From Eutypella sp. D-1 (Eukaryota; Ascomycota; Sordariomycetes; Xylariales; Diatrypaceae), in the NCBI GenBank assembly GCA_023313575.1, contig JAJTTP010000048.1:1-25073 (forward strand): DNA of 25,073 bases, given 5' to 3'. The position numbers and the translations under genes are program-made. The notes below the pieces were generated by a model. The model was not told where the DNA came from. It did no database searches and worked only from the letters and a program-made list of their open reading frames with translations. This document shows, in pieces, positions 21,001 to 24,411 of this stretch; position 1 is the stretch's first letter, and the number at the start of each line of letters is the position of its first letter.

Positions 21001-24000
21001 CACTGACTAACTAGTTTAGTCTCTTTAGAATTAAAAAAAAATATAAAAAAAAATAATAAAAAAAAAAAATATACATATTAAGAAAAAATAACCTTAACAA
21101 AAAAGTTACAACATCTACAACTCTACTTTAACAAATCAAAATAAGACTAATTTATGCGGAGCGTCTTCAAATTAATCTTTACCTCTAGCTCTATTCATCC
21201 CGGCTTTTATTTTACTAATTTGTTCTAAACCTTCCGGAGTTAAATGAGCCTTTTTTTCTATAAGTAAAGCTACTTGTTTAAAATCGACACAATCTTTGGC
21301 TTTTGTCCCTAATAAAGGATATTTATCAAAAAAAGGAATAATTTTAGCTAATATCTCTTTGGCACTTTCTACTTCAAATCTACCATCACTATTTTTGGCT
21401 ACTTCTCTATAATAACCACAACCTAAGTATTCCACTATGTTTTGTAAAAGCTTCTTATCTAAAATATCCTGAGTTATTTGGAATTTCATAGATACTTGAT
21501 AGCCAACCTTATAACCAGCAGCTTTTCTCAATTGAACAAAAAAGCAACCCTCCCCATCTGCGAATCCAGCTAATCAACTAGGATCATAGATACTACGTTC
21601 TATGTCTTGTTCTTCTGGTGTACATATTTCAGCTAGAGGCACTAAATTAGGAAATTATTCCTGTAGTTTTTCTGATAAACCTGAATTATTAAAAGCTGCT
21701 TTGAGAGATACTATTTTAATCAAACCCTCTTTAATTAAATGTTCCTTATTAGATATCATACGCCACGCTTCTTTGAATAGCCGATAATTTTTCATTTTTC
21801 GAGTTAACAAAGGAAATTCATCTAAAAGAACAAACAATATCTCGAGATCCTTTATACTTGAAATTTGATAATGAACTCTCCCAGGTATACCTTCTGAAAT
21901 GTAACCTACTCCTGATAATTCCGCTTGAATTAGTTTAAGTAAATCTAACTCTCTTTCATGTAGTATTAAGCCAAATGAAAGTTGAACCGAATAACCAATT
22001 CTCTTAGTAGAACTTTTAACTACTTTTATAAAGAAGTTTCCTTCCGCATCGATAAACCCTGCTATATAAGCTTTCACATTAAAAGCTTTTCCACTTTCAA
22101 CTCATTTCCCTAATACTACGGTGGACAAGGCAGATTCGTTACGCCCATTAGCTGCTTTGCTTGAACCAAATCTCTTAATTTCCACTAAATATAACATAGT
22201 ACTTAGTCTTTTTTTACTTGCTTTATCTAGTCCATTGACAACCCGAGCTAAATCATTATTTACTATAGGGCTTCGAGTTATCGATGACGTAGCTCCCAAT
22301 CGTGGTAGTATGCTACCATATTTTTTCTCCACCTTTTTTTGTGAAGAAAGTGTATACTTCGAAGCCAAGAGTTTAGCGCAAGAAGAATTTAATACCCTAT
22401 ATAAATAAGAGGCCAACTGATATTTATTTCTTACCTTACCGTAGTAATCCATTATACTTAGGAACCAAGACTGATAAAGCAAAATAATCACATCCTTATT
22501 AAAAGGAGTTCAAGTTAACTTAGGTATAGATTTTCTACCTTTCAGGAAACCTGCTTCGGTTAATTTAGATACAATACTATTTATAGGAGCTGTAAACGTT
22601 ACTGTGTCTTTGAAAGAGGAAAGTTTAAGATCTATAATAGATAAACGAACCCCTAAGAAAATTATTGATGATCCTTCCTTTGTATTAGATAAGTTAATAA
22701 TCTCAAAAGCTTCTTTGGATACCTCTAAAAACAAATTTTGTTTAAAGAAATCTATAAGCAGATTCATAATATTTACACAATCCGAATAAGAACCTATTAC
22801 ACCTAAAATTAACTGATCTCCAACTCTTACATAAGATAATTTAATCTCTTTAGAGAACATTTTGGTGAATTGATATTCCAAAGAAGAAATATAATTATCT
22901 ACACGTTCTAAGAAGATGTCAATAAGTATAGGGTATAACAAAGATCTTAAGTTCTTAATCGGTATATCAGATACTTCAGATTTTACACCAAAATAATGAA
23001 AATGACCTGCGTTTAAAGCCTTTCTTATCAAATCTGTAAATCTTCTGTCTTCTAATTTTTCTTCTAAAATAGACATTAATACGTTAAAGTCCATATGCTC
23101 GAAATATTTAAATAGATCTATCTTTATAATTCATTTGACACCTTTTAATTTTAACTTAAGCTCCCTTAAAGCATATTCATGAGTATTTGCTGAAGGGAAG
23201 GATAAATGTGTTATTTTACCCTTAGGGTTATCGATAATTGGACGAAAGCTTTGAGGTAAAGACTTAAATAAGGGCTCATAAAAAGCTTCTAATAAAATGA
23301 CTATTGCTTTAATTAATAAAATATCTTTAGCTACAGAGAAATTATTAAGAATAGTAAACTTTTTAGGTCCCCCTTTTAGACTTAAGTCTGTAAATTTATA
23401 GTTTCCTTCTTTTATTCTAATTATTATATCCAAAATATCCGAAAGTTTTATCTCTCTCCCAAATATATTAGGATGCAGTAATGAACATCCGAAGATGTTT
23501 TTCAAGGATAATATATCTATACCTGTAATTACTACCTTACAAGGTTGAACAGTCAACATATCATAAGCTAGTAAATAAAGATTCTTGTCATAAAGTTGAG
23601 TGTATATTTTCTTTTTAAAGGCTACTTTTGTAAGTTGTAACATTTGTTGTTTTTTGTCATAAGCACTTAGTTTATCAACCTTACTTTGGCTGTTAAATTT
23701 AATTGTACTGTCAAAAGCAGCAACCTTAGTATAAGTAGATGCATATTTTCCTAGGACCCTTCCAAATAATTTATTCTCATTTATTCTAAACGCTAAATGC
23801 TTTACCAGAGAGAAAAAATATATTGTACTATGATCCTTCCGTTGCCGTGATCATCTCTGACTGTAGGCAATCCCGAAGTTCCACTTAACTGCTCCTTCTA
23901 ATTTATCCTTAGGTAGTCCGTTCCCTAAATTAAGAGTATATTCTACACCCCGATCAAAATGTCCTTTAGTTAGAACCCAATTATCTAATCCTAACTCATT

Positions 24001-24411: not shown

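Follow-up and report, generated by a model that had tools for sequence, protein, structure and literature searches.

A cox1 group II intron of Eutypella sp. D-1 probably encoding a maturase fused to a LAGLIDADG endonuclease that is broken in this isolate

The stretch of DNA analysed here, called the window, is the whole of contig JAJTTP010000048.1 (G000:C43; 25,073 nucleotides) of the fungus Eutypella sp. D-1 (assembly GCA_023313575.1; genome total 48.5 Mb), and the element in question is a group II intron in its cox1 gene. The minus strand of the window, on which all the features of this intron lie, holds a fungal mitochondrial cox1 with many intron open reading frames (ORFs), as judged from the ORF list and from tblastn with a COX1 protein used as a ruler. 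Exon 1 (24250..24411; MWFERW...ADNQL) was located with this ruler and from the sequence, and is in frame with the intron ORF; exon 2 (20652..20729) matches the ruler protein at 100%, in agreement with the original prediction, which had placed the element in cox1. Between them lies the first cox1 intron seen in the window, 3,520 bases long (20730..24249), whose predicted splice sites were set from its end motifs and from domains V and VI. It begins with GTGCGC at 24249 and ends with ...TTCAC at 20730, its AC standing directly before TACAATAGT, and exon 2 starts with TAC AAT AGT right after the intron end. The two ends (GTGCG and AC) match the 5′ GUGYG and 3′ AY rule, and the insertion site is after base 162 in this gene's own numbering.

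The ribozyme is most readily recognized at its 3′ end, where Rfam model RF00029 matches domain V together with domain VI at 20767..20830 (59.2 bits, E 1.7e-9). The trinucleotide GGA (20831-20829) stands immediately 5′ of the 34-base domain V, as CTGGA followed by GAGCCG at 20833-20823. A GGA linker before domain V is diagnostic of IIA1 introns (PMC13190283; here and below, published work is cited from the available portions of its text), and the window intron has it. CAGA and CGGA, candidates for the IIA1 CRGA linker between domains II and III, are both present upstream of the reverse transcriptase (RT) region. A candidate intron-binding site 1, TCAATTA, is formed by the last 7 bases of exon 1 (ending at 24250), and a candidate exon-binding site 1, TAATTGG (23977..23983), pairs with it through six standard pairs and one G-U; the bases of the latter are identical in L028, a related locus with readable DNA. 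The adenosine at 20736, 7 bases from the 3′ splice site, is a candidate branch point by its position. The RNA between the ORF and domain V (20831..21171) is about 79% conserved between the window and L028, contains a helix that changes on both sides, and yielded no group I core; it is tentatively taken as the remainder of domain IV. Because of the helix changing on both sides, a placement of domain III in this RNA was considered as another possibility.

The intron is read through by a stop-to-stop ORF (24516-21655) of 953 amino acids under genetic code 4, with five TGA codons as Trp, which begins in cox1 exon 1, passes into the intron at 24249 and runs without a break through RT, domain X and LAGLIDADG. 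Chance as the source of the open frame was rejected, the probability for 953 codons at this composition being about 10^-26. In the intron-encoded part, residues 305-473 align to the group II RT LtrA (phmmer, E 1.9e-16) within a degenerate RT region at 22660..23610, and RVT_1 is absent from the Pfam matches at E ≤ 1. The RT-5 box (22813..22833) reads YVRVGDQ in place of YVRYADD, with VGDQ at the YADD position, and PQG is missing, which bears out the dead-looking RT site noted originally. The thumb, or maturase domain X, follows at 22315..22659 (Intron_maturas2, PF01348, residues 550-665, E 2e-20), and then a linker at 22078..22314, where the ratio of nonsynonymous to synonymous change (dN/dS) is about 1 and the predicted model of a relative, P0001, has low confidence (predicted local distance difference test blocks of 29-60). 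The first LAGLIDADG half (21658..22077) is assigned by its motif and by LAGLIDADG_1 (PF00961, residues 729-828, E 1.5e-19), so that the conserved-domain search finds domain X and LAGLIDADG in one frame, as had been expected. An in-frame TAA (21655..21657) separates it from the second half, which continues in the same frame for 160 codons (21175..21654) and is likewise assigned by its motif and by PF00961 (E 2.4e-27). Both motifs keep their acidic residue in the window and in P0001, P0002, P0003, P0026 and P0047, and the arrangement conforms to the double-motif LAGLIDADG fold of the I-OnuI type; lists of matches to solved structures were filled by this domain. The original prediction had drawn the element as a single frame of 21655..24249, with TGA as Trp: the frame itself stands, but its end is the in-frame TAA, so that it took in only half an enzyme; the second half lies at 21654-21175 and the intron extends to 20730. 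Its claim that LAGLIDADG sits in the place of an HNH nuclease is supported: the best of four HNH queries reached only E 0.37 in 22300-20700, against 3e-12 to 6e-17 for the same queries in a canonical intron, the second of group II in the cox1 of L028. No remnant of the endonuclease (En) domain was found to resume downstream of LAGLIDADG; some group II RTs naturally lack En (PMC4424553).

The fused arrangement is a family trait. Protein searches returned nine relatives with the same domain order (P0001, P0002, P0003, P0005, P0006, P0009, P0026, P0047 and P0118), so that the union of RT and LAGLIDADG in one protein, for which a search of other mitogenomes had been proposed, indeed recurs, and LAGLIDADG stands behind domain X in all 10 proteins that reach past X, the window included; P0004, P0007 and P0008 end before this position and are uninformative there. 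P0001 is 79% identical to the window over the part searched and P0003 42%. The LAGLIDADG domain is complete and free of stops in P0001, P0002 (which starts inside RT), P0003 and P0026, and relatives as distant as 42-50% identity keep it complete. P0047 has both motifs, an early end and a long linker before them, P0005 loses the match within the first half, and the sequences of P0009 and P0118 are cut short. The insertion site falls at the same cox1 codon in L028 and in the four relatives whose exon side is visible (P0001, P0004, P0005 and P0026). In an RT tree of 22 rows, nine fused-clade proteins including the window form one clade with support of 100/100; the clade includes P0007, which has no LAGLIDADG in view, and P0004, P0008, P0047 and P0118 were left out. 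YADD is missing from all nine RTs of this clade and present in 12 of the 13 canonical rows, and PQG is missing from 8/8 and present in 11 of the 13, while the first Asp of motif A is retained in 8/8.

The LAGLIDADG part was placed in a tree of its own. Among the best 120 of 320 matches to this domain, 9 were at least 57% identical and 111 at most 46%; the 66 rows of the tree comprised 55 of these 111, seven fused-type rows (among them P0039, a fragment starting in the linker) and four of five window neighbours, one being without a match, and the fused-type fragments P0038, P0040-P0042, P0052, P0118 and P0130 were left out. The seven fused-type rows form one clade (100/100), which adjoins LAGLIDADG ORFs not joined to RT. 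The simplest reading of both trees would be a single fusion event inherited as a unit. Further DNA of such relatives was found neither in viral contigs, with P0026 and P0003 as queries, nor in genome contigs: a second scan of the viral contigs gave the L028 record once more, two of three candidates from a domain V pattern (L055 and L056) were that same record and the third (L057) looked bacterial, and 46 loci were found with canonical RTs. A family search for COX1 in the L028 record found none because the exons are too short. As separate observations, LAGLIDADG or GIY-YIG ORFs lie in frame within domain I or the early RT in L028 (2376-3830, 3890-5000 and 5322-6626) and in P0004, and the intron itself therefore seems to be a repeated target of invasion; in P0006, a LAGLIDADG_2 ORF, in frame and with a match of NUMOD type, breaks into the first LAGLIDADG motif of the fusion near residue 448.

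Selection has acted on the fused protein, and most strongly on its LAGLIDADG part: dN/dS is 0.12-0.28 in the LAGLIDADG halves, 0.40 in domain X and 1.17 in the linker, the last on 59 codons. The intron ORF also differs less from its counterpart in L028 than the host genes do. Over the codons within BLAST alignments, which exclude the most diverged stretches (for cob, 86 codons), synonymous differences per site between the window and L028 are 0.253 for the intron ORF (0.211-0.294; 766 codons, in an alignment set free of a stray match to another LAGLIDADG ORF of L028, which is 61% identical), about half of the 0.458 found for nearby cox1 and cob exons (0.346-0.579; 136 codons), and two cob intron ORFs give 0.452 (0.360-0.555) and 0.527 (0.430-0.633). 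The intron thus seems to postdate the separation of its hosts, as though it had passed from one to the other. YADD is already lost from both copies, which suggests, indirectly, that the intron lineage moved after the death of the RT, and the lower divergence fits DNA homing by the LAGLIDADG part.

The copy in the window is itself interrupted. The TAA at 21655 is present in all five copies read in this assembly, the window included, although the contigs carrying them may be redundant assemblies of one mitochondrial DNA (mtDNA); in two of them (C52 and C62) the match is also split into two frames. P0040, a fragment of 197 amino acids that is 96% identical to the window, crosses the TAA site without a stop, and unbroken copies therefore exist elsewhere. 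The LAGLIDADG chain is likewise uninterrupted in P0001, P0002, P0003 and P0026. Since its homing enzyme is cut by the stop, the intron of the window is probably unable to home now, and the Eutypella isolate is probably left with a maturase and a dead nuclease. In L028, short inserts at 8420-8485, 8752-8803 and 9270-9330, the first two of them GC-rich, break the LAGLIDADG coding part.

These results are best accounted for, we consider with moderate confidence, by an IIA-type group II intron in cox1 that encodes a maturase-homing-endonuclease fusion, the endonuclease being broken in this isolate. Long ago, a double-motif LAGLIDADG gene of a type that group I introns carry would have been joined in frame behind domain X, replacing HNH; the RT active site would have decayed, but domain X would have been retained for the folding and splicing of its host intron. 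The protein would be made from unspliced cox1 mRNA as a fusion with exon 1. In unbroken members, LAGLIDADG would cut intronless cox1 and the intron would be copied in through DNA repair, in place of retrohoming; in this isolate, the stop between the LAGLIDADG halves would have ended homing. The most likely mechanism is accordingly help in splicing by domain X combined with DNA homing by LAGLIDADG in the unbroken members, maturase activity, cleavage of cox1 and the order of events being what we infer. The exchange of retrohoming for DNA homing that was originally suggested gains from the lower synonymous divergence and the retention of X, but in this copy the enzyme that would do the homing is split by a stop. 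Whether the family further represents a halfway stage between the two modes, in which LAGLIDADG was gained with RT and maturase in place and the RT then died, leaving one fused protein for splicing and DNA mobility, is in our judgement evenly balanced.

Several points weigh against the maturase-endonuclease fusion as the preferred explanation. The synonymous divergence of cob alone is 0.399, with an interval (0.261-0.537) that overlaps that of the intron ORF, and the LAGLIDADG part alone reaches 0.307 (0.230-0.392); the exon value is based on 136 codons, and the low divergence of the intron might also stem from gene conversion or codon bias. The nuclease is broken at both loci with readable DNA, by the TAA in the window and by the GC-rich inserts in L028, so that any movement of the intron must predate the breaks. 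Both the role of the maturase in splicing and the cutting of cox1 are predictions from sequence. Finally, a nested intron or what is left of one would have space here, as the ORF is followed by 340 bases, against 44 in the canonical intron of L028. Pairs resembling P7 of group I introns reach a descriptor score of 14 after the L028 ORF (of 200 shuffled versions of the window's stretch, 15 also give at least 14), and where the linker begins they reach 14 in the window and 15 in L028.

The last of these points bears on the alternative that the structure is a twintron, in which domain IV would contain a nested group I intron with LAGLIDADG as its ORF, in frame with the RT ORF by chance or by core creep, and spliced separately. 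In this cox1, LAGLIDADG frames are often continuous with the exon upstream of them, other ORFs are inserted in the same RT frame in L028 and P0004, and the 340 bases after the ORF would be extra structured RNA; the P7-like pairs just mentioned fit as well. Such a nested intron had been named in advance as what could overturn the fusion, and it was looked for. Because a whole-window Rfam scan missed group I introns that the window holds, short stretches were rescanned with a control: the Rfam group I model has no match at E ≤ 10 in window 20650-22420 or in L028 8000-9880, but in a stretch of like size it detects the core of the next cox1 intron (42.1 bits, E 3e-9, a score below Rfam's own cut-off of 50). 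The model misses some cores, as it found one at only 1 of 5 loci (15 kb) around other LAGLIDADG ORFs. A strict text pattern for P7 hit four places in the window, two of which looked convincing by eye. In its stead a scored descriptor was used, which was checked on 10 Rfam-confirmed cores of this mtDNA and gave 18-20 for nine of them. Several neighbouring introns reach only 15 with it, and within the window scores of at least 15 occur six times on the coding strand and twice on the opposite one. After the window ORF the score is 11, in the middle of 200 shuffles (8-15, middle 11-12); the pair scoring 14 in L028 is not complementary in the window, and the descriptor reveals no clear group I core in L028. 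Thus no core was found by detectors that miss some real ones and, with no En remnant resuming downstream, a twintron appears unlikely.

Another alternative keeps the fusion and changes its meaning: a free LAGLIDADG gene behind the RT gene would be a parasite in frame, targeting copies of the intron that lack LAGLIDADG and not intronless cox1, with no aid to the mobility of the intron. Comparable fusions are known for rps3 (PMC12308204), several of the best solved LAGLIDADG relatives are listed as Rps3/homing-endonuclease fusions, and the mtDNA of Ceratocystis has free LAGLIDADG genes that invade other ORFs. However, all 10 members that extend past X have LAGLIDADG, so that no empty target is in view, and yet this module is the most constrained; because a parasite fixed for this long should decay, and because the intron appears to have been mobile relative to its host, this view is decidedly doubtful. 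A pseudogene, in which RT and LAGLIDADG alike are decaying and the frame is open by chance or because the decay is recent, is highly improbable, for the TAA of the window, the GC-rich inserts of L028 and the lost RT motifs are set against dN/dS values of 0.12-0.28 in the LAGLIDADG halves and 0.40 in X and against a complete LAGLIDADG in relatives of 42-50% identity.

Three other features of this mtDNA were recorded. Upstream of cox1, the minus strand at 24607-24677 gives a tRNA-like match of 25.1 bits, below the Rfam cut-off, which by eye is possibly tRNA-Cys; ARAGORN with the bacterial code found no tRNA. The sole other group II domain V found in the mtDNA of the assembly (G000:C33, 47278-48935) has a LAGLIDADG match on one side and a group I core on the other, an arrangement somewhat like complex introns published at cob-490. 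Frames with low-complexity stretches (Gly/Pro repeats and an Asn run) occur on the minus strand of the window at 17625-18374 and 9780-10877.

Compared with known systems, the preferred reading, a maturase fused to a homing endonuclease, has neighbours on several sides. Canonical RT-maturase-HNH introns, such as the second cox1 group II intron of L028 and most of P0010-P0022, share RT and X but, unlike the window intron, keep YADD and PQG, and most of them HNH; the L028 intron has in common with it the exon-fused frame and the GTGCG start. The window intron thus lacks the YADD, PQG and HNH En of an active group II retroelement. Many organellar proteins have lost YADD and hence RT activity (PMC4424553, 2015), and degenerate maturases of the MatK type resemble the protein here in that YADD is lost, X is kept and the role is read as splicing only, but are without a homing endonuclease (PMC4424553). 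Among proteins that combine a homing endonuclease with a partner, the hybrid of Erysiphe nad5 (PMC8260586, PMC8767329) joins one to RT in a single predicted protein, differing in that it is GIY-YIG and in nad5. Rps3-LAGLIDADG fusions (I-OnuI, I-LtrI) carry the same structural LAGLIDADG family as an in-frame C-terminal extension, the partner there being a ribosomal protein, within an rnl group I intron (PMC7902536), and in cox1-212 LAGLIDADG is fused in frame to a GIY-YIG ORF (PMC12308204, PMC10448965). A further precedent is the complex group IIA intron nad2 i5 of Ceratocystis, described as encoding a double-motif LAGLIDADG and RT in domain IV (PMC8208691); that intron lies in nad2 and its RT is interrupted by another intron, and the available text mentions no single frame, dead RT or family.

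A close class as a whole is that of group II introns encoding LAGLIDADG homing endonucleases (group II-LHE introns), which in 2015 were known as IIB1 introns in rRNA genes (PMC4424553). In the survey of Liu et al. (2026, PMC13190283), as far as its available text goes, 753 such introns were all without recognizable RT or maturase; in fungal cox1 the sites were 381 and 926, the ORF lay in domain IB, and two fungal families had IIA1 backbones. The window intron resembles them in its group II ribozyme, double-motif LAGLIDADG, fungal mtDNA, cox1 and GGA before domain V; it differs in its site (after base 162, in the gene's own numbering) and in that its LAGLIDADG, split by TAA, is fused to an RT/maturase, which is recognizable from domain X (E 2e-20) and the LtrA match. 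The search of that survey started from introns already known to belong to the class and may have missed RT-bearing ones. The configuration had been proposed as one not known before, and this holds in part: no report of LAGLIDADG fused to a group II RT/maturase was found in the open-access literature, but LAGLIDADG with RT occurs in Ceratocystis nad2 (PMC8208691) and RT-less LAGLIDADG group II introns are known in cox1, so that, as far as the literature searched goes, novelty seems confined to the form that is fused and RT-dead. As none of its introns had both, the survey (PMC13190283, May 2026) infers that RT was lost first and LAGLIDADG gained later, an order described there as not directly resolvable. 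If the halfway stage is true, the fused clade would be an exception to the finding, made on the 753 introns, that RT/maturase and LAGLIDADG exclude each other, and would bear on the question of how homing endonucleases were adopted by group II introns. A conserved clade whose single chain combines a dead RT, a conserved X and LAGLIDADG shows that coexistence is possible and makes the order of events testable. The product would also be a single protein with predicted roles in RNA splicing and in DNA cutting that come from two unrelated classes of intron.
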